From assembly GCA_021785115.1 (NCBI GenBank), contig JAJYGO010000461.1, positions 1 through 9,688 of the forward strand: a stretch of DNA of 9,688 nt. The letters are read 5' to 3'. Both the position numbers and the translations under genes were made by a program. Origin of the DNA: Chloroflexota bacterium (lineage in GTDB: Bacteria > Chloroflexota > Limnocylindria > Limnocylindrales > CSP1-4). Below are positions 134-8,857 of the stretch, in pieces. Under the pieces are notes generated by a model. The model saw only the letters and a program-made list of their open reading frames with translations, was not told the origin of the DNA and did not search any database. The first letter of the stretch is position 1. Each line of letters starts with the position of its first letter.

Positions 134-1582
134 CTACCGAGGCGAGGTGCGAGTGGGCAGGCGTGCGGTATCGCCTCGGGCACGCCGGCTTCGGTCGCCT
201 AGTCCGCACTCCGTGCAGGCGGGGTCGATACGGGGCTGATCAAGGCGCACGTCGCGGACTGTCGGTCGAAAGCGCATATAGGCGCTCGTTGTGCCCGCCT
301 CCGTGAGGCCTGTGACCGCGAACAGGAAGTCGTTGGCCGCGTGGGAAGCGGCAGTGGCGTTGAGGGTGATGACCGACGGGGCGGCAATTCCGGGCTCATC
401 CACGTAGCGTTGCGCCCGCCGCTCGCCGACTGAGAGCGACTCCTCAGCCAGCCGCGCGGGCGAGATCAGGCCGTTGCACCGGAGGCAGCCGGACTCGGGC
501 CACACAGGTCGCACCACGGAATGGACATCGACCACTGCTCCGGTCGCTGAGTCCACGCGAACCTTCGAGCCAATCTGGACGCCCGGGATCAGATACTGAT
601 GTACCAGGGCGTTGAAGACGAGACGTGCGCCGTCCCCGTCGGCAGCCAGGAACAGATAGTCGGAGTCGATGAACCTCTGGGCCACCTCCGGGTCTCGGAT
701 GTCGCCCATGATCGCCTCCACCCGTGTGGTTGGGCTCGCCTCGGACGCCACCCGCTCCGCCAGGGAGACCTTCGGTGTGGCACGCCGCATGCCCAGGCGC
801 CGAAGCGCCGCCGGCCATCGAGGATCCGCGAGCCAGACCCGGGCATCGCCACGGCGGGCACCGGGCAATCGGGGCAAGTTCGTGACGTCCACTCGTTCCG
901 GGTCGGCGACGACGATCTCCCCAACGCCGAGCCGCGACAGGTACTCGACAAGGAGCATGCCAACGCCCCCCGCCCCGATGATGCCAACTCGCAGACTGCG
1001 AAGGATCGCCTGCCCAGCGTCGCCGAACATGCGGGCCTGGCGATCGTATCGGGCGCCGCTCCTCCGCGGCTGAGGCAACTCGGCAGGGTACATTCGACGG
1101 ATCGACTGGCCTACCACCGTGAGGGAGGAGAGCGCACTGCGGCTTCCTCCAGTCCACCAGATGTCGCCCGCGACCGCGTCGCGGGCGAAGACCAGCGCCC
1201 CGACAGGCTGGCCGCGCATGATGTCGAGGAGCGCGGGGTATCCCAGCTGATGAGACGCAAGGTCCACCGATGAGAACCTCACTACGCCGACGCCGCCGTG
1301 GTTGTGTACGGCGACGTACGCCAGCTTCTGGTCTCGCGCGTGGATGGCGCGGTCGCGGACGAACTCGGCCCTCAGGGCGCGGTATCCGCGTGTGCCAGGC
1401 ACGTAGTCGAGATTGTCATGCGCCAAGATCACGTCTCGCACAAGGAGACGGACGCCGCGGGTCGTGACGCTGACCCCTGCTTCCAGGACTGCGCCATGCT
1501 CGTCTTCGTCGCCAGGGAAAAGGTGCGCTGCTAGGCGGGCGTATACGCCCGCAGGGATACGGATCGTGACGGGCTCCTTCAT
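134..1582 (-). CDS. JAB/JAMM peptidase - E1 (ThiF-type) adenylyltransferase fusion
   Basis: A two-domain enzyme of about 482 residues. The N-terminal JAB/JAMM metallopeptidase shows H93-N-H95, eight residues, then S104-x-x-D107, with a candidate catalytic glutamate at E28; the family removes or matures Ubl proteins. The E1 domain follows: the conserved RYDRQ segment near 178-182, the nucleotide loop GAGGVG (203-208), then D227, D232, N235 and R238, which match the ATP/Mg pocket of ThiF/MoeB/E1 enzymes that adenylate a Ubl C-terminus. Two zinc CxxC motifs lie at 366/369 and 456/459. These are its only cysteines, so no free catalytic cysteine remains, unlike canonical E1s. The chosen ATG (1582) overlaps the E2 stop as ATGA; a GTG at 1600 would add six residues. 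It is the last gene of the Ubl-E2-E1 operon. The basic tail after C459 (about 23 residues) could be a read-through created by the nearby IS end. Recognition of both domains is firm; the target is unknown. Confidence 0.93.
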   Translation of the reverse strand: MKEPVTIRIPAGVYARLAAHLFPGDEDEHGAVLEAGVSVTTRGVRLLVRDVILAHDNLDYVPGTRGYRALRAEFVRDRAIHARDQKLAYVAVHNHGGVGVVRFSSVDLASHQLGYPALLDIMRGQPVGALVFARDAVAGDIWWTGGSRSALSSLTVVGQSIRRMYPAELPQPRRSGARYDRQARMFGDAGQAILRSLRVGIIGAGGVGMLLVEYLSRLGVGEIVVADPERVDVTNLPRLPGARRGDARVWLADPRWPAALRRLGMRRATPKVSLAERVASEASPTTRVEAIMGDIRDPEVAQRFIDSDYLFLAADGDGARLVFNALVHQYLIPGVQIGSKVRVDSATGAVVDVHSVVRPVWPESGCLRCNGLISPARLAEESLSVGERRAQRYVDEPGIAAPSVITLNATAASHAANDFLFAVTGLTEAGTTSAYMRFRPTVRDVRLDQPRIDPACTECGLGDRSRRARGDTARLPTRTSPR

Positions 1583-1968
1583 GGTCTCGACTGGATCCAC
1601 GCCAGCACCTTCATGAGCTTGAGCAGCGCTGTCTCGATCGCCGGATCCCGACGGTTGCTTCGCCTAGAGATCTGGATCGCGCTCCGCCCCTCGAACGACG
1701 TGGGCGTTAGCGCCTCGCCAAGCGGGCCGCCCTCTGCCCTGGAGAGGTCCCCGCGGACGAAGTGGGGATAGACGTCGGCGTACGGGTAGCTGAAGGCAAT
1801 CCGAAAGCCGATCCACGTCGAGGGTTGGGCCCAGGGGCCACCCAGCGGCACGTCCTCGATGATGACGATGGCTCCTCCTTCGCCATCCTCGCGCACGACG
1901 AACGTCGCGTCCGGCAGGCCGCGGCGGAGGTCCTCCACCGCGGCCTGGACATCGGGTGTCAGCGCCAT
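1579..1968 (-). CDS. E2-like protein of a bacterial ubiquitin-like conjugation system
   Basis: A 129-residue protein between the Ubl and E1 genes, the usual place for the prokaryotic E2 partner that accepts a Ubl from E1. An E2-like core is suggested by strands around IGFRIAF (53-59), the aromatic/proline stretch YPYADVYPHF (61-70), which recalls the FPxxYPxxxP element of E2 folds, and a C-terminal helix ALLKLMKVLAWI (114-125). There is no cysteine anywhere, so a normal E2 thioester is impossible. The conserved-looking AIQISRRSN segment (97-105) near the expected active-site region offers S101 and S104 as possible nucleophiles; this is inference. The gene starts 2 nt after the Ubl stop without a visible Shine-Dalgarno site, and its TGA overlaps the E1 ATG, implying translational coupling. 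The E2 assignment rests on context plus weak motif similarity and needs a profile search. Confidence 0.72.
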   Translation of the reverse strand: MALTPDVQAAVEDLRRGLPDATFVVREDGEGGAIVIIEDVPLGGPWAQPSTWIGFRIAFSYPYADVYPHFVRGDLSRAEGGPLGEALTPTSFEGRSAIQISRRSNRRDPAIETALLKLMKVLAWIQSRP

Positions 1969-1970
1969 CG

Positions 1971-2249
1971 CTAAGAGTTGTCGTCCGGCGCGACCGCGTC
2001 GAATCGCGAGTGCTTCGTGACCGTGACCTCATCACGGTCTCCGACGATCTTCGTGCGACCGTGCTCAAGTTCCTCGCTGAGCACGAAGTCCAACGCGATC
2101 GATACCCCCTGGGCGATCGCCGCCTCCTTGATGTGGAGCCCGGTCAGGCGTGGGCCTTCGACGGTTACCGGTCGCTCGTTGACCGTGATCTCCACGGCGT
2201 GGTGCCCCGGCTCCGGCCGGCTGGGCTCGACTGCCTCGATGGTGTTCAT
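1971..2249 (-). CDS. Ubiquitin-like protein (single multiubiquitin-type domain)
   Basis: A 92-residue protein with the pattern of the bacterial multiubiquitin (Ubl) domain: a first strand VEITVNERPVTVEG (19-32), LTGLHIKEAAIAQGVSI in the helix region, a DFVLSEE turn, then IVGDRDEVTVTKHSRFDAV and a C-terminal DDNS. It is the presumed modifier activated by the E1 two genes downstream. It has no cysteine. It also has no C-terminal GlyGly; the last glycine is G70, so either the native end (S92) is adenylated or the tail is processed. An N-terminal extension of about 17 residues precedes the fold. It is the first gene of the operon, with a strong Shine-Dalgarno site (AAGGAG, reading 2259 to 2254) 4 nt before the ATG, the best in the operon, which suits a modifier needed in excess. 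Many relatives carry several Ubl repeats; this one has a single copy. Confidence 0.83.
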   Translation of the reverse strand: MNTIEAVEPSRPEPGHHAVEITVNERPVTVEGPRLTGLHIKEAAIAQGVSIALDFVLSEELEHGRTKIVGDRDEVTVTKHSRFDAVAPDDNS

Positions 2250-2361
2250 TTCGCTCCTTGCGCAAGCGGAGTCCGATTGCTACTCTGCAACCGCGACGAT
2301 CCGCATGATTCCACATACGGCTGAGCGTTGCAAGAGTCGAATCTGGAGGGACAGACCCAGC
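2250..2361. promoter_or_regulatory. Divergent control region between the Ubl operon and the HTH/ImmA genes
   Basis: This 112-bp spacer separates two divergent start codons (2249 minus, 2362 plus), so it must hold both promoters. For the Ubl operon a candidate promoter on the minus strand is TTGCAA (2333-2328), a 17-nt spacer, then AATCAT (2310-2305, four of six matches to TATAAT), which would leave a leader of about 50 nt. No equally good pair was found for the plus strand. The two arms of an imperfect inverted repeat, annotated separately, lie at 2275-2291 and 2327-2343; the second covers the candidate -35 box, a position suited to repression. The promoter call is inference from motif spacing alone. 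Confidence 0.5.
2275..2343. repeat. Imperfect inverted repeat, candidate HTH operator pair
   Basis: The left arm at 2275-2291 reads GATTGCTACTCTGCAAC. The right arm at 2327-2343, read on the minus strand, is GATTCGACTCTTGCAAC. They share GATT, ACTCT and GCAAC, differing by a two-or-three-base change and one inserted T. The arms are separated by 35 nt (2292-2326). Paired sites flanking a divergent promoter, directly upstream of an HTH gene, are typical of autoregulatory operators. The sequence similarity is directly visible; the binding role is inferred. Confidence 0.45.
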
Positions 2362-2763
2362 ATGGCGAAGGGGACGTTCGACGTCCAGGCCTTCTTCGCC
2401 GCCCTAGATGCGGCGCGACGAGAGCGGAATAGCAACTGGAAACAGGTGGCCGACGCGGCGCACGTCTCGGCCTCGACGTTGACGCGAATCGCACAAGGGC
2501 ACAAACCGGATGTGGACGGGCTCGCGAGCCTACTGACCTGGTCCGGCCTGCAGGCCGAGGACTTCATCCGCGAACCATCGCGCGAGCAGCCACCGACGCT
2601 AGCGCGGATCTCGACCTATCTCCGCGCTGACCCGAAGCTCGACCGGAAGAGCGCGGCGGCCCTGGAGCGGATTATCGAGGCAGCCTACCAACAGATGAGC
2701 GGGGAGTCAGGCGATGCCGCTGCGTCGCGGATTCAAGAGCGAAGCGCACGCGATCGCGCGTGA
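2362..2763 (+). CDS. Small helix-turn-helix (XRE-like) transcriptional regulator
   Basis: About 133 residues. Residues 25-63 (NWKQVADAAHVSASTLTRIA, then a GHKPDVDGLASLL-type helix) give the classic XRE/Cro-like helix-turn-helix with the STLTRIAQG recognition helix. The rest, about residues 64-133, is a charged, probably helical tail that could dimerise or be the cleavage region. The ATG at 2362 was chosen because the HTH fold begins soon after it and GGAGGG (2345-2350) lies 11 nt upstream; the frame stays open upstream but that part runs through the Ubl gene on the other strand. Its last 50 nt overlap the protease gene. HTH plus ImmA pairs are known from ICEBs1-like elements, where the protease cleaves the repressor. 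Here it probably represses itself and the divergent Ubl operon; that target is inference. Confidence 0.85.
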   Translation: MAKGTFDVQAFFAALDAARRERNSNWKQVADAAHVSASTLTRIAQGHKPDVDGLASLLTWSGLQAEDFIREPSREQPPTLARISTYLRADPKLDRKSAAALERIIEAAYQQMSGESGDAAASRIQERSARDRA

Positions 2764-3277
2764 GGTGCGGGCGGAGCTCGGCCTCCGTTCGGCCGACCCG
2801 CTCGACCCGCGTGCCCTGGCCTCACACCTGGACGTGCCGGTCTTCGGGATCAGCCTGCTGCGGGGGACAGTCCCCGACGCGGTCAGGCACTTCATGACCG
2901 TCGACTCGTCCGTCTTTTCGGCGGTCACGATCTTCCGGGGATCGGCACGCACCATTTGGTGCAACGATGCTCACGCGCCGGGACGCCAGACGAGCGACAT
3001 CGCGCACGAGTTGGCGCATGCGTTGCTTCTCCATGAACCGGGCGCCGCGCTGACAGCAGACGGCGCGCGAGCATGGGACAGCGTCGCGGAGGAAGAGGCA
3101 CAGTGGCTGGGAGCCGCACTCCTCATCTCGGACGAAGCTGCGTTCGCGATCGCTGCGTCCGGAGGCGATCTCGATGCCGCCGCGCTGCGGTACGGCGTCT
3201 CGAGGTCGCTGTTGGACTTCCGGTTGAACGTCACCGGCGCCGCGTTGCGGGTGGCGCGTGCGAGACGGCTCACGTAA
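2714..3277 (+). CDS. ImmA/IrrE-family zinc metallopeptidase (HExxH)
   Basis: A 187-residue protein with the zinc motif H98-E-L-A-H102 in the context SDIAHELAHALLLHE. Downstream, EEEAQWLGAALL (126-137) corresponds to the EExAxxFAxxLL helix that supplies the third zinc ligand in the ImmA/IrrE family. The N-terminal helix (about residues 9-24) and PLDPRALASHLDVPV resemble the usual family entry region; the C-terminal AALRYGVSRSLLDFRLNVTG segment matches the family's typical post-protease helix. GGGGAG (2701-2706) sits 7 nt before the ATG, supporting this start although it lies inside the HTH gene. Relatives cleave a partner HTH repressor after a cellular signal. The neighbouring HTH is the obvious substrate, and the divergent Ubl operon a plausible output. 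It ends one base before the convergent recombinase remnant's stop codon. Confidence 0.9.
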   Translation: MPLRRGFKSEAHAIAREVRAELGLRSADPLDPRALASHLDVPVFGISLLRGTVPDAVRHFMTVDSSVFSAVTIFRGSARTIWCNDAHAPGRQTSDIAHELAHALLLHEPGAALTADGARAWDSVAEEEAQWLGAALLISDEAAFAIAASGGDLDAAALRYGVSRSLLDFRLNVTGAALRVARARRLT

Positions 3278-4460
3278 CTAACTGGCCGCAGCCCGCCACC
3301 GCGATGACATGGTTACCGTCGCCGCTACTCCGAACTCCTCCGGCAGCACGTCTGCTAGCCCGTGGCGCACCGCGTGATCAGACAGGTGCGCCGTCGCCTC
3401 GCGCAGGCCGAGGACCTCGATCCGATCGAACAGGGCATCCGCCACGAGCTGGCGGCCCGTTCCGCCGCGCGCCTTGGCCCACGTCACGGGCAGTTCCTGG
3501 AGGTACGCAACCGCGCGGTCGGCGGGCACTCCGTCGTCCTCGCGCACCTGGCGGGCGCGTGCCTCGTCGGCGTCGAGGCGCCGCATGGTCGCGTCGAGGG
3601 CCGCCGTGTCGCGGTCGCGGAGGTAGCGGTTCATGGCCCCCTCTCGATCACGGGCGATGCGCGCCAGTGCGGCGTCGTCTGGGCGAGCGGTGGAGGGGAC
3701 CACGGCGCCCACCACTGCGGTGAGGGTCTGGGCTCCGAGGGCGGCCTCGCCCAAGATCCCCTCGACCACCTGCCCGTACAGCTCCGTGGGGTACGCGTGG
3801 CCGGCGGAGCGGCCGCGGCCAGGCCGCGCGTCAGATGGGCGGGCCGCCGCGAACGCCGGGCAGACGTTGCGATGGCGGTAGTAGCCCGTATCGCCGGTCA
3901 GCCGGGTTCCACACGCCGCGCAGTGGAGTCTCGTCAGGGCGTAGGGCCAGCGAGGATCGGCAGGGCGGCCGGTGTCGGTGGCCCGCCGCGCGCGGGCGGC
4001 CTGAGCCTGCTCCCAGGTCGACTCGTTGATGAGCGGCGACCAGTGCGCCGACGCGCCGTCCCGCAGCCGGCCGACGTACAGCGGGGAGGTGAGCACGCCC
4101 CGGACCGTGAAGAGCGGGAGCCGCACGGCGGCCGCCACCTGCGCATCGGTGGCGCCGGCAGCTGCGAGCGCGAAGATCCGCTCAACGGTGTTGCGCTTCT
4201 CTGGGTCGGGCTCCAGCAGCTTCGCGGCGTCCCGGCGAAAGCCGAAGGGCGGATGGCCGCCGGGATCCCGCTGGGTGGCGCGCTTCGAGGCGTAGCCCTC
4301 ACTGATCCGCCGCGACAGCCGGCGGCTATACCGCTCAGCGTCCTTGGCCTCCTCCACCAGCTGGTCCCGGTGGCGCTCGCACGTAGACAGGATCTCCTCG
4401 TCGCAGAAGTAGACCGGGCCGCGTCCGTCAAGGTGGCGTATGAGCACCGCTTCATCCGCC
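3278..4460 (-). pseudogene. Large serine recombinase, N-terminally truncated remnant
   Basis: The reading frame encodes the C-terminal two thirds of a large serine recombinase. Visible parts, in order, are an AERYSRRLSRRISEGYASKR helix following the resolvase core, GGHPPFGFRRD, a recombinase-type DNA-binding domain (VERIFALAAAGATDAQVAAA, then FTVRGVLTSPLYVGRLRDG), a zinc ribbon (CAACGTRL with a later C in RNVCPAF), and a helical, Arg/Asp-rich coiled-coil-like tail. The catalytic resolvase domain of about 130-150 residues with its active serine is absent. Before about 4460 the frame continues only as unrelated low-complexity sequence antisense to the next gene, and no good start codon or ribosome site was found. 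It should therefore be inactive for recombination, a relic of an integrative element. The left end of the remnant is approximate. Confidence 0.8.
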
Positions 4461-4462
4461 TG

Positions 4463-5181
4463 ATGAGCGACTATCCAGCAGCCGCCAGCACGGGCATCAC
4501 CTCCTCGCTGTGGTCGGTCGCGAGGACCTCGAGGCGGGCCTTCGCCAGCGACTCCGCGCTCGTCGCGGGAATGGCCGCTTTGCAACTGGTGCCTGTCGTG
4601 GGTGGGGCCATCGCGACCTTCATCTCGGAGTACGTGCCTCGGAAGAAACAGGAACGCCTCGTCGGCTTCGTGCAGGACCTAGCCCGCGAGTTGACGGCGG
4701 AGCGTGAGCGCATCGACACCGAGTTCGCCACACGAAGGACTTCGACCGCATGGTTGAGGACGTACTCGACCGCGTGCAGACGGTCAGGAATGAGGAGAAG
4801 CTCGGGTACTGGGCTGTGCTCCTGGCTGGTGTTGCAGCCATCGACCGGCCAGGCCCGACCGACCGCCAGCGGATGATCCAGACGCTCGACGATCTCGGAC
4901 GGGAGCACCTGCGCCTCCTCCATGTCATCGCCACGACGACCGAGGCACGGCCGGGCCTGTACATGGGCGGCGTGAGCGATACCCTCAGCTGGAAGATGCC
5001 GTTGGTGTCCCACGACGACGCGCGGCGGCTGTGGGGTGAGCTCGCCCGAACTGGCGTCGTCCAGGACTACCCCTCGGGGATGATGTCGAGGGAGGGTGCT
5101 GGCAATCTTTCCGTCCGGCTTACCTCGTACGGACGCGAGTTCGTTCGCCTCCTTCGGCTGGAGGCGGGCTACTCCGACTGA
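4463..5181 (+). pseudogene. Gene of unknown function interrupted by a frameshift
   Basis: Two plus-strand frames join into one protein of about 238 residues. The first half (from ATG 4463) has an N-terminal region, a hydrophobic stretch ALVAGMAALQLVPVVGGAIA (about residues 32-51), then YVPRKKQERLVGFVQDLARE and a charged helix. The second half (to TGA 5181) continues with KDFDRMVEDVLDRVQ, EEKLGYWAVLLAGVAAI and a C-terminal part with LTSYGREFVRLL, which looks like a small winged-helix-type end. The switch lies at 4730-4731, where an extra AC in GCCACACGAAG breaks the frame; removing it gives EFA-TKDF. No Shine-Dalgarno site precedes 4463, which falls at the recombinase junction, so the native 5' end may also be lost. 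The pattern recalls a family of unknown proteins seen in accessory regions. No function is assigned. A sequencing error is an alternative to a true mutation. Confidence 0.62.
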
Positions 5182-5321: not shown

Positions 5322-5900
5322 CTACACGCAGGTGACGGAGACTCGGCCGTCGAAGGGGCGCGCCGGCGGCAAACCAGCTCGGATCGCATCGCTCAGAGGG
5401 CGAACGCCCGACAACACAACATGGGCAATCGGAACCATGGCAACGAGTCCTAGTGGCCGGCCGCCGTGTTCGATCTTGAGCGGTGCGTCCCGGAGGGCCC
5501 GATGCACGTCGGAGGATGCGTCGCCGTGGTGAACGCCGCCGAGGACGTTGGCGCCATAGGTGATCAGGTCTCGGACGCTAAACGCCATCGAGGCTGAGAA
5601 CACCAAGTTCTGCGCAAGGAGTTGGGACACGGTCAGGGACTTGATGGGACCGCCGTCGGCCGGCTCCTCCGGGTCGATCCCGAGCCAGAACAGGAGGCCA
5701 GGCGTGGACGGCGGTGTCCGAACCTGATACCGCAGGCGGAGTCGGTGCTCACGGTTCGCCTGTTCTACCAGCGGCTTCGGATCTACGAGAAGCTCCCGCA
5801 GCAGCGCTGAGGCGCGGAGGAGTGCGTACTCCGAAGCATCCCAGGTGGCACGGCTCTGAAGGTCGTCGAGCGTGTCGACGAAGAACCGATCAACGTCCAT
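5322..5900 (-). CDS. Conserved-looking protein of unknown function
   Basis: About 192 residues. The function is not recognised. It begins MDVDRFFVDTLDDLQSRATW, continues with an alpha-helical region rich in Leu and Arg (YALLRASALLRELLVDPKPL), then a middle segment with PSTPGLLFWLGIDPEEPAD, a TVSQLLAQN stretch, and FSVRDLITYGANVLGGVHHG, which looks like a compact helical pocket. There is no transmembrane span and no clear catalytic motif. The start at 5900 was preferred over an ATG nine bases upstream (5909), because the ribosome site GGAGGG directly abuts that upstream ATG but stands 9 nt before 5900. It is divergent from the gene at 6058 and convergent with the frameshifted gene, so it is a single-gene unit. 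One cysteine lies near the C-terminus. The reading frame, codon use and ribosome site support a real gene. Confidence 0.75.
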   Translation of the reverse strand: MDVDRFFVDTLDDLQSRATWDASEYALLRASALLRELLVDPKPLVEQANREHRLRLRYQVRTPPSTPGLLFWLGIDPEEPADGGPIKSLTVSQLLAQNLVFSASMAFSVRDLITYGANVLGGVHHGDASSDVHRALRDAPLKIEHGGRPLGLVAMVPIAHVVLSGVRPLSDAIRAGLPPARPFDGRVSVTCV

Positions 5901-6057
5901 ACGGGGCATCCCTCCACGCGTCGGCCCGCTCTGCCCGCCCTCGTCGCCTACGTTGCCCGAACGGGCCTCGTTTCGGTGCAGGCTACGTGCGTCCGTCGCT
6001 GGGCACGAGCGGACTGGTCATCGCGAGCCCCCTCTTGGCGAGTTCGGAGGATCGGCT
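5901..6057. promoter_or_regulatory. Divergent intergenic region between two genes of unknown function
   Basis: This 157-bp spacer separates the start of the minus-strand gene (5900) from the GTG start of the plus-strand gene (6058) and must carry their promoters. A short dyad, GCCCG-AA-CGGGC (5955-5966), lies near the middle. The plus-strand ribosome site GGAGG (6046-6050) stands 7 nt before GTG, and the minus-strand GGAGGG occupies 5915-5910. No convincing -35/-10 pair was seen. Confidence 0.35.
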
Positions 6058-6900
6058 GTGCACGACGAAGATCGGATCTTCCTGAGGGAATTCACCAGCA
6101 AGACGTGCCTGACGCACCCCGCGATCGCGCTCGCTCTCCATCGTTCCGCGGTCGATGCGGACGAAGTCGGCGTCATCGTGGAGAGCCTCATGAACGTCGT
6201 CGAACGAAGTCAGGCAGCGGCCGTCGCGGAGCGCGCCAGAACGGGGGCCCTCGTCCAGACCTACGTCGTCGCCCGGCTCCTCGCGCAGCTCGCGGCCGCC
6301 GTTGAGGACTGTGCATCGCTTGGGCATGCGATCCGCTTTCGCGACCGGGGCGGCCTATTTGCCCGATACCTGAACTCGATGGGAGGCGCCGCAGGAGACT
6401 TCTTCGACGAGGTTAGGCAGGGCCGCTCGCTCCCCGAGCTGCTGGCGATACCAGAGCTGGACACGCTCGCAGTCGAAGGTGAGGACGGGGACTTCCTGGC
6501 GCACGACTACGCGAGTCTGCCGGGCACTCTGCGTCAGATCGCCGACTTCTATCGCGAGGCAGCGGCGCCCCTCACATGGCCGGACATCGGAGTGAGCGAC
6601 GTTGACAGGGAGCCGGACGTCGTGAAGATCGTCATCGATCTGGTCCCGATCGGCTCGCCAGTCCCGCCGGTGACCCTCCTCGAGGCCTACAACAAGATCA
6701 AACATCGCTTCGCCGTCTTCGACGAGATCGCCACCCTGGGCGCAGCCGCGCGGGCTACGGACAAGTCGGTCGTCTTCGCGACGTATCCTCGCCACCCTGA
6801 TCACGCTGAACGTCTAGTGCTCAACACCGTCGCGGTTGCTCAGGCGTCCGGTGAGATGGCTGCCCTGCCACTCAAGCTCGACGAGCTGGGCGTCGCGTAG
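6058..6900 (+). CDS. Protein of unknown function, GTG start
   Basis: About 280 residues. The family is not recognised. A GTG start at 6058 is preferred to the ATG at 5872 because GGAGG sits 7 nt upstream, and because the longer version would read through the divergent gene's start and promoter with low-quality Pro/Arg-rich sequence. The mature N-terminus reads VHDEDRIFLREFTSKTCLTH. Most of the protein is predicted helical: a helix with SLMNVVERSQAAAVAERART, an AAVEDCASLGHAIRFRDRGG segment, and LLEAYNKIKHRFAVFDEIA near residues 200-220, where NKIKHRF resembles the conserved basic helix of several helical nucleic-acid or nucleotide-binding folds. That resemblance is too weak for a call. No signal peptide or transmembrane span is seen. 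It is divergently paired with the gene at 5322-5900 and may share regulation with it. Confidence 0.78.
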   Translation: MHDEDRIFLREFTSKTCLTHPAIALALHRSAVDADEVGVIVESLMNVVERSQAAAVAERARTGALVQTYVVARLLAQLAAAVEDCASLGHAIRFRDRGGLFARYLNSMGGAAGDFFDEVRQGRSLPELLAIPELDTLAVEGEDGDFLAHDYASLPGTLRQIADFYREAAAPLTWPDIGVSDVDREPDVVKIVIDLVPIGSPVPPVTLLEAYNKIKHRFAVFDEIATLGAAARATDKSVVFATYPRHPDHAERLVLNTVAVAQASGEMAALPLKLDELGVA

Positions 6901-7001: not shown

Positions 7002-7622
7002 TTAGCTCGAAGCCCGGGAGTACAGGCATTCATCGAACCCCAGGCGTGGCGAGCAGAGCTGATCGAACTTCACGCGCGGCTGCCTGACCTTCCTGTCCTC
7101 CCACGGCACGACGCCGAGCTTCTGCCGGGCGTCTCGCAGAGCCTCGTAGCCGGCCCATACCTCATCCGCGCCTCCCCACCCGCAGCGGACCATGGCGACC
7201 ATGAGGTCGACGGTGCGCATCACACACACCTGCTCCGCGGTGCGTGCCGCCGCATAGCCGACGCTGTCCTCGCAGACAAGCCGCCAGCCCCGTTTCTTGG
7301 CGACCACGATCGAGGCAGCTTCTCCTTTGTCGCGACCGGGCGCCGATCCCCAGCGCTGTCGTAGCCGAGCAACCTCACGCAAGTGCGTAGTCGCGTCTAG
7401 CACGACCTCCCCGAACCAGGACGAGCTGCGGACAATCGGTCCCGTGGGGCCTTTATCCAGCTCAACCAGCACTTCCTGAACGAGGTGGGTGCGCCCGCGG
7501 AACTCGCGCATGACCGTGTCGAGAAGGCCTGCCATCCGGAGGTTGATCAGCGAGCTGCTATCGAACATCCACACACCCTCGCGTGGGTCGTGGATGTCGC
7601 CGCTAAGTCGCCCCAGCGTCAT
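7002..7622 (-). CDS. PIN-domain nuclease, likely toxin of an HTH-ImmA-PIN module
   Basis: A 206-residue protein with a PIN-like fold. The first acidic residue follows a strand in MFDSSSLINL (D21). Further acids lie in LVQEVLVELDKG (E50/E54), in the DKGEAASIVVAKKRGW segment (D98, E101), and in LVCEDSVGYAAA (E118, D119). This D-E-E-D spacing and the KGEAAS...A...G(W) element are characteristic of PIN RNases, which cleave RNA using two metal ions. The chosen ATG (7622) gives about 18 residues before the first strand; an inner ATG (7568) at MFDSSS is possible. The gene overlaps the 3' end of the protease gene by 20 nt, and its own ribosome site is weak, pointing to translational coupling. The region past about residue 150 (GWGGADEVWAGYEALRDARQ) is an extra helical tail. 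Its RNA target is unknown. In a toxin-antitoxin reading the HTH/protease pair would control it. Confidence 0.8.
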   Translation of the reverse strand: MTLGRLSGDIHDPREGVWMFDSSSLINLRMAGLLDTVMREFRGRTHLVQEVLVELDKGPTGPIVRSSSWFGEVVLDATTHLREVARLRQRWGSAPGRDKGEAASIVVAKKRGWRLVCEDSVGYAAARTAEQVCVMRTVDLMVAMVRCGWGGADEVWAGYEALRDARQKLGVVPWEDRKVRQPRVKFDQLCSPRLGFDECLYSRASS

Positions 7623-8346
7623 AGTCCGCCTGCACGGCCCCCTTCAGGCGACGCTGCAGCCGTGCTTCCGGAATCTCGAGCAACTCGGCGAGCCGCTCGA
7701 ACGTGATTTCCCCGGCCACGTGAGCGGCGATTGCATCCCGGACGAATTCCGGCGGAAACACCGTCTCCTTGGGCGACTGTGGCATGTCCAGCGCCTCAGC
7801 GACAACCGAGCGCGACGCAGCCTTCAGCTCGTCGCGCTGTTCAGCGCCCCGTGGCAGGAGCCTGCAGTTGTGCAGCCGGTAGACGAGGGTGTTGTAGCTG
7901 ACGCCGTATTCGACGGCGACATCGAAGACCCAGTCAGGGGTGATGGCTCCGGCCTTGCGCAGCCGTTCATGGAGAGCGCCCCGCGGAACGAGGAAGCTGG
8001 CAGCAAAGGTGTTCGCCTCCTCCTCTTGGGCACGCCCCTTCACGTCGAGTACGTTCTCGTCGACGGCCGCCTGGTGACCGAGGACGTGATGGCCGAGCTC
8101 GTGGGCTGCCGTGAACCGTTGGCGCGGCAGGTACATGTCGCTGTTGAGGAGGACGAAGCCGATGCCGCCGCGGCGAACGTACATGCCATCCGGTCCGCCC
8201 AGACCGAGGCGCCGTTGGACAAGCTTTACGCCGGCGGAGCGGAGCGTTGCCGCGATGTCGACAACAGGCCCGTTCCCGAGGCCCAGCTGTAGGCGAAGTT
8301 CGTCAGCGCGGCGGGCGATGGCGTCGTGATCGACGGCGCCGCTCAT
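7603..8346 (-). CDS. ImmA/IrrE-family zinc metallopeptidase with C-terminal extension
   Basis: A 247-residue protein. The N-terminal entry helix DAIARRADELRLQLGLGNGP and PVVDIAATLRSAGVKLVQRR are typical of ImmA/IrrE proteins. The zinc motif is H82-E-L-G-H86 in RFTAAHELGHHVLGH, with EEEANTFAASFLVP (from residue 108) supplying the third ligand. After it come the WVFDVAVEYGVSYNTLVYRL helix-turn-helix-like motif seen in many family members, and an extra C-terminal helical region (FPPEFVRDAIAAHVAGEITF... to the end) that is longer than in the protease at 2714-3277. The two proteases differ in zinc motif (HELGH against HELAH) and in length, so they look like distinct lineages rather than a recent duplication. 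The start overlaps the HTH stop as ATGA and the 3' end overlaps the PIN gene. Its likely substrate is the adjacent HTH protein; that link is inference. Confidence 0.92.
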   Translation of the reverse strand: MSGAVDHDAIARRADELRLQLGLGNGPVVDIAATLRSAGVKLVQRRLGLGGPDGMYVRRGGIGFVLLNSDMYLPRQRFTAAHELGHHVLGHQAAVDENVLDVKGRAQEEEANTFAASFLVPRGALHERLRKAGAITPDWVFDVAVEYGVSYNTLVYRLHNCRLLPRGAEQRDELKAASRSVVAEALDMPQSPKETVFPPEFVRDAIAAHVAGEITFERLAELLEIPEARLQRRLKGAVQADYDAGAT

Positions 8347-8702
8347 TCGCCTAGAGAGGCCACGAACTCGTAGCGTTGGATGAACTGCTCAAACCAGTCG
8401 ATCGCTGCACGAGTCCTCGTGCCGGCGCCATCCTCGGCGCGCAGAAGAGCGCTGACCGGCTCCTCGTCGGCAGCCGCGAGGAAGAACTCGATGCTCTGGC
8501 GCGTTGCCTCCGCAATGCGCTCCAGGCGATAGGTCGAGATGCGGCCGTCCTCCTCGGCAGCCCGCAGCTCTGCAGCACTCATTCCGCCGAGAGCAGCCAC
8601 CTCCTCAAGGGGCAGGCGTGCTCGTTCGCGGGCTTCTCGGATGCGAGCGGCCAGTCGGCTGGCAGTTCCCACACTTGTCGACGAAAGCTGAGCGGTGGTC
8701 AT
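8343..8702 (-). CDS. XRE-family helix-turn-helix regulator
   Basis: About 119 residues from the ATG at 8702 (a GTG at 8726 would add eight). GTGAGG lies 5 nt upstream of the ATG and favours the shorter form. Residues 14-66 form an XRE-type HTH (ASRLAARIREARERARLPLE, then MSAAELRAAEEDGRISTYRL), with EVAALGGMSAAELRAAE as the turn. The C-terminal half, about residues 75-119, has an acidic segment and a final helix (WFEQFIQRYEFVASL). It is the first gene of a three-gene operon: its TGA overlaps the protease ATG (ATGA), and the protease gene overlaps the PIN gene. By analogy with repressor-ImmA pairs it probably represses the operon and is removed by the protease. The promoter is expected in the spacer to 9028. 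It shows no close resemblance to the HTH at 2362-2763. Confidence 0.87.
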   Translation of the reverse strand: MTTAQLSSTSVGTASRLAARIREARERARLPLEEVAALGGMSAAELRAAEEDGRISTYRLERIAEATRQSIEFFLAAADEEPVSALLRAEDGAGTRTRAAIDWFEQFIQRYEFVASLGE

Positions 8703-8857
8703 CGGCGCCTCACGTTTTCCATTCACGCTCGCTTGTCAACTCTACAGACATGGTACCGCTCAGTCGGCGGCTGCGACACGCCGCCACCGCGGCGACGCCG
8801 CGATCCGGACGACCACTCGTAAAGGCCCGGCCCTACTCCTCTCGCCCCGACCACACC

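Follow-up and report, generated by a model that had tools for sequence, protein, structure and literature searches.

Introduction

How could a ubiquitin-like protein be handed along an E1-E2 relay that has no catalytic cysteine? This question is raised by three genes in a 9,688-nucleotide stretch of DNA (the window; contig JAJYGO010000461.1, assembly GCA_021785115.1) from a Chloroflexota bacterium. They encode a ubiquitin-like protein (Ubl), an E2-like protein and a fused JAB-E1 protein, all on the minus strand, adjacent or overlapping, in that order. The initial annotation of the window proposed that such a system must use another acceptor, for example a serine oxyester, or only adenylate the Ubl, and that it could be a bacterial ubiquitination-like (Bub) operon or a compact variant of one. 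We found that the operon is a member of the Bub systems, a kind already known, and that it belongs to a separate branch with a Ser-terminated Ubl and no detected DUF6527. The best explanation, which we consider probable, is that this Bub operon works by an oxyester relay from Tyr393 of the E1 to Ser101 of the E2-like protein. The features concerned are as follows.

1971..2249, minus strand: Ubl, BubA-like, 92 amino acids, single Multi_ubiq domain (Pfam PF14452, E = 1.4e-11)
1974-1976, minus strand: codon of the terminal Ser92 of the Ubl (C-terminus -APDDNS, without glycine)
1579..1968, minus strand: E2-like protein, BubB-like, 129 amino acids, cysteine-free
1666..1668, minus strand: codon of E2 Ser101, the predicted nucleophile, in the motif QISRRS
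134..1582, minus strand: JAB-E1 protein, BubCD-like, 482 amino acids from ATG, with an N-terminal JAB/JAMM domain and a C-terminal ThiF/E1 domain
404..406, minus strand: codon of E1 Tyr393, the predicted acceptor (residue 399 in the 488-residue frame), equivalent to Tyr370 of Citrobacter BubCD

Results

Loci compared and operon layout

Homology, folds, residue conservation, branch and gene layout were computed in this analysis. A search with the E1 alignment supplied the genome set, 80 loci spread over many phyla; one 24-bit E1 match in L030 was dropped, as were E2 pieces below 60 bits (two of L045 and one of the two of L055), leaving 76 E2s. To these were added 19 plasmid loci, close and distant, picked by hand from 169 matching records. 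Three of them (L083, L098 and L099) belong to the window's branch and 16 do not. Of these 80, 74 have the trio of Ubl, E2 and E1. The remaining six are five loci whose E1 sits at the end of a contig, and L027, where both the Ubl and the E2 went undetected. Among phage records, none matched the E1 in full length (one of 50,697 matched, with 16% covered). Two variants of the layout were seen: in P0116 the Ubl and the E2 are a single protein, fused directly after DDNS as though the Ubl stop codon had been lost, and in the Bub operon of a Celeribacter plasmid (L096 2214-3485) an IS256 transposase gene is interposed between E2 and E1.

The mechanical open reading frame (ORF) of the JAB-E1 gene, 134-1600, has 488 residues from a GTG start. 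Because the homologue P0121 has 482 residues (100% identity over 99%) and because an ATG at 1582 overlaps the E2 stop as ATGA, the evidence suggests that translation starts at this ATG. Tyr393 is numbered from it; ATG numbering equals GTG numbering minus 6.

Cysteine content

Recounting found no cysteine in the 92 residues of the Ubl or the 129 of the E2-like protein, and four in the JAB-E1 protein, all within two CxxC pairs, as the initial annotation had stated. Its positions for the pairs, 366/369 and 456/459, hold with the ATG start but not in the 488-residue frame, where they are 372/375 and 462/465. The absence of cysteine from 221 residues is weak evidence by itself, having by rough arithmetic a chance of about 1 in 10 at about 1% cysteine. 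The case for a cysteine-less system rests on conservation in the family, and a single protein pair proves little. When the window E2 was aligned with the best 120 of 1281 homologues, no column had cysteine in more than 13 of the 121 rows. In the corresponding E1 alignment (the window and the best 120 of 3442) the CxxC cysteines alone are near-universal (121, 121, 121 and 109 of 121 rows). Two other E1 cysteines are frequent in relatives (108/121 and 104/121); the window has Ala and Ser there, therefore neither is required for catalysis in the window protein. The catalytic E1 and E2 cysteines of the canonical thioester cascade (Bil, Cap2, eukaryotic) were thus not found in the window proteins.

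The CxxC cysteines might instead be free, with the E1 using them to accept the Ubl as a thioester. In favour of this, all four are kept in 80/80 genome-locus E1s of the window's branch, but ThiF/MoeB proteins have this pattern at their structural zinc site, and the first pair is substituted in 7/19 plasmid-relative E1s, both Citrobacter ones among them. Since the E2 also lacks a cysteine to take the Ubl, we regard this explanation as highly improbable.

The E2-like protein and Ser101

The label "E2-like" is borne out by homologue families and by fold matches. The protein itself has no Pfam match; PF14462 was found on 3 of the 120 listed homologues, one of which its source calls "Prokaryotic E2 family E". 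The best fold match is BubB. A PDB sequence search with the E2 alone or the Ubl alone gave nothing credible.

Ser101, Arg102, Gln99 and Lys117 are present in 121/121 E2 rows, and Ser101 and Lys117 in all 76 genome-locus E2s. Ser104, which the initial annotation had named beside Ser101 as a candidate nucleophile, is found in 120/121 rows but varies in the wider set (S 52, N 16, Q 5 and T 3 of 76) and was rejected; Ser101 stood. The equivalent serine of the S-[RW]-[HRK] motif occurs in 19/19 plasmid relatives, a count that includes L091, with its motif taken from the frame 3564-4001, and the Dein, Meso and Brad rows, where the aligned serine was two columns off and was matched by eye on S-[RW]-H. 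In the window's branch the motif is S-R-R in 66, S-R-K in 5, S-R-S in 3, S-R-A in 2 and S-L-R in 1 of 77 rows including the window, whereas it is S-R-H or S-W-H in 16/16 other plasmid relatives.

Invariance of this kind bears on a rival reading, in which the E2-like protein would only bind, as an inactive RWD-like module, and the E1 would either solely adenylate the Ubl or pass it straight to a substrate. Iyer 2006 (PMC1779556) stated this for the type 6e operons, deeming the cysteine-less E2-like domain probably inactive. Below BubB, the best fold matches include UEV domains, which lack the cysteine. Nevertheless, the motif serine is kept in all three sets, E1 Tyr393 is just as invariant, and a structure of a BubCD-BubB-BubA complex has been deposited, according to the title of 9eav. 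We therefore consider an inactive module unlikely. Because Ser101 and Tyr393 never vary, adenylation of the Ubl as the sole activity, the other option of the initial annotation, is also less likely.

The JAB-E1 protein and Tyr393

The window JAB-E1 is homologous to BubCD over nearly its whole length, and its E1 part matches ThiF (Pfam, 2.2e-26). The adenylation residues are identical in the 19 plasmid-relative E1s, and in the same comparison the JAB metal residues are kept. Tyr393 is Tyr in 121/121 alignment rows, 80/80 genome loci and 19/19 plasmid relatives; along with it (Tyr399 in the 488-residue frame), Pro408 and Asn414 are kept in all 80 genome-locus E1s. Tyr393 is aligned with position 370 of the protein from Citrobacter braakii. 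In the PDB alignment Tyr393 stands opposite Tyr in two BubCD chains and opposite Phe in a third, 9eav, which is titled BubCD(D104A/Y370F)-BubB-BubA(155-229). Because Tyr393 is invariant and aligned with the position mutated to Phe in this chain, we infer from the alignments that it is the probable acceptor of the E1. Ser403 (Ala in 14/19 plasmid relatives) and Thr406 (variable among the 19) were rejected as acceptors.

The BubCD homology, the BubB fold, the Multi_ubiq Ubl and the tyrosine equivalent to Y370 together bear out the suggestion of Bub membership. The homologues and the solved Bub structures also support a putative non-cysteine acceptor.

The Ubl and its serine-ended tail

The C-terminus DDNS is found in 119/119 listed Ubl homologues besides the query (of 170). 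Among the genome-locus Ubls, 73/74 end in Ser and 65/74 end exactly in DDNS. The sole exception to the Ser end, L052 4830-5594, ends in DDTSWR, perhaps with a two-residue tail that is trimmed by the JAB domain. Five tandem-Ubl proteins, two of them identical, were inspected; each has the DDNS tail on the last copy only. Cyclisation of the tail at Asn-Ser was rejected, the penultimate Asn being Asp or His in 5/74 loci.

The 16 plasmid Ubls outside the window's branch carry a Gly at their end, close to it or where they join the E2 (judged by eye; that of L091 from the frame 3263-3598). Numbered as in L082, the crystallised BubA(155-229) would have Gly229 as its last residue. The Ser-ended window Ubl has no such glycine. 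The glycine feature is our own observation and is not known as a published defining one, therefore it is no bar to Bub membership.

The Ubl tail also bears on another rival reading, a ThiS/MoaD-like pathway for sulfur transfer or some other use of adenylation in place of protein conjugation. A ThiF-family domain would suit such a pathway, but the Ubl lacks a C-terminal glycine, the E1 is fused to a JAB domain and partnered by an E2 fold, and the match to BubCD spans nearly the whole length. We find this pathway scarcely credible here.

A separate branch of Bub operons

A DUF6527 profile was made from eight proteins; leave-one-out recovered 8/8 seeds (weakest 6.5e-25), a control that covers those eight. 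It found DUF6527 in 16/16 Gly-type plasmid loci, eight of these being seeds, and in 0/83 loci of the window's branch (best E 0.31), where 76/80 genome loci have at least 600 bases downstream of the E1; the window has only 133 bases beyond the E1 stop, which limits any reading of DUF6527 or a downstream gene there. The term "compact variant" in the initial annotation is thus apt.

Eighteen E1 positions are fixed differently between the window's branch and the Gly-type rows. Among them are Gln336 (83/84 branch rows, against Asp in 14/14 others), His111 (84/84, against Asp or Glu in 14/14), Asp140 (80/84, against Arg in 14/14) and Arg358 (83/84, against T/H/D/Q/S). In a quick tree of 98 E1s, from which L088 and L097 were omitted (incomplete annotated E1), a single branch with SH-aLRT 100 separates the 77 Ser rows from the 14 Gly rows, and seven unlabelled rows sit on the Ser side. 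Since the tree is quick and midpoint-rooted, "branch" here means one side of a split. Sampling was not balanced: the query for the genome loci was the E1 of this very branch, and plasmids alone supplied the Gly rows.

When a fourth conserved gene in place of DUF6527 was looked for in the 80 genome loci, the top clusters were helix-turn-helix (HTH) proteins, present in 31 loci, an unclassified protein, present in 22, and M78 peptidases. The unclassified protein, mostly of 500-570 residues (e.g. L054 7419-9140, minus strand), is encoded by 13 ORFs that are downstream and convergent and 10 that are upstream on the same strand. Its representatives had no match in Pfam, PADLOC or NCBIfam, and the one searched had none in the PDB; since the window ends 133 bases beyond the E1, its presence there cannot be judged.

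Neighbouring genes

The following features adjoin the operon.

2362..2763, plus strand: HTH regulator, CapH-like, 133 amino acids, divergent
2714..3277, plus strand: M78/ImmA-IrrE zinc peptidase, CapP-like, 187 amino acids (Peptidase_M78, 6.1e-15)
2250..2361: intergenic region, where the promoters of the divergent genes are expected from the gene layout

Homologues of the HTH protein (phmmer) occur in 40/80 loci and are upstream and divergent in 37 of those 40; homologues of the peptidase (phmmer) occur in 17/80. The pair resembles CapH and CapP as an HTH protein with an M78 peptidase but differs in its weak PADLOC capP score (2.1e-5) and in the HTH protein, which had no match to the capH models in the PADLOC search. 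Between the Ubl and HTH genes no strong palindrome was found, only 6-base inverted repeats. The pair probably represses the operon and would release it upon DNA damage; we infer such regulation, as we would any role in phage defence or stress.

Further along, the minus strand of 7002-8726 encodes an HTH protein (8343-8726), an ImmA/IrrE peptidase (7603-8346; M78 2e-21) and an ORF with weak PIN-type matches (7002-7622), resembling a toxin-antitoxin module. A serine-recombinase-type ORF at 3278-4585 (minus strand; Recombinase PF07508 1.9e-4, resolvase catalytic domain unmatched) is perhaps a mobile-element remnant. The ORFs 5322-5909 (minus strand) and 5872-6900 (plus strand) are unmatched in Pfam, PADLOC and NCBIfam.

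Discussion

The oxyester relay that we favour would run as follows. The E1 domain of the BubCD-like protein would adenylate the C-terminal carboxylate of Ubl Ser92, and the acyl group would move to Tyr393 in a mobile loop as a phenolic oxyester and then to E2 Ser101 as a serine oxyester. From Ser101 the Ubl would be transferred to a substrate amine, probably a lysine, and the JAB domain would take the tag off. Maturation would not require this domain, since the Ubl as encoded stops at -DDNS and has no extension to trim.

Several points weigh against this relay. Bub systems reportedly form oxyester intermediates, but no statement of them was found in the literature passages covered. The probable inactivity assigned to the E2-like domain by Iyer 2006 has been mentioned. 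The active site of the window E2 is S-R-R, not the S-R-H of Citrobacter BubB, judging by the aligned motifs, and the Y370F mutant is known here from the PDB title alone. The Tyr393 loop (387-400) has a predicted local distance difference test (pLDDT) score below 50 in the model, although such a score would be compatible with a mobile acceptor loop. Also, the family matches of the HTH gene are weak (HTH_3 0.00055, under the Pfam curated cut-off).

The Citrobacter Bub system (BubA, BubB and BubCD; PDB 9ea4, 9ea5, 9ea8, 9eae and 9eav) shares with the window the folds of the E2 and the JAB-E1, the E2 motif serine and the E1 tyrosine (Y370 = Y393). In the Citrobacter plasmid relatives L081 and L082, however, Ubl repeats and E2 form one protein whose junction carries a Gly (Gly229 in L082), the E2 motif is S-R-H, CxxC is missing and DUF6527 is present, whereas the window has a standalone Ser-ended Ubl, a standalone E2, S-R-R and CxxC, and its branch is without detected DUF6527. 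Bil (BilABCD) and CBASS Cap2 are further conjugation pathways of bacteria, built from E1- and E2-type components. These components use cysteines, whereas the window operon has no conserved catalytic cysteine. For BilD, a conserved cysteine is described in PMC11354881. The type 6e operons (polyUbl, Cys-less E2-like, JAB-E1), as described in Iyer 2006 (PMC1779556), have the same gene content and order as the window, with the E2-like gene between those of the Ubl and the JAB-E1. They are also said there to encode a metal-binding protein, whereas none that is DUF6527-like was found in the window's branch. A Ser-tailed, DUF6527-less Bub branch was not met in the literature passages covered.

As a more tentative proposal, which we hold possible without leaning towards it, the window may represent a deep and widespread Bub branch with an all-oxyester Tyr-to-Ser relay, without DUF6527, which activates the C-terminal Ser of a near-invariant acidic tail and in which E2 S-R-R/K replaces S-x-H. 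In such a branch the four E1 residues Gln336, Arg358, Asp140 and His111 may fit the acidic tail, and the JAB domain would be solely a deconjugase or esterase.

In conclusion, our results suggest that a cysteine-free ubiquitin-like relay is conserved across many phyla, as judged from record titles. With E1 Tyr393, E2 Ser101 and the unusual Ser-ended Ubl tail named, a system of three proteins that lacks DUF6527 would allow the ester chemistry to be tested directly.
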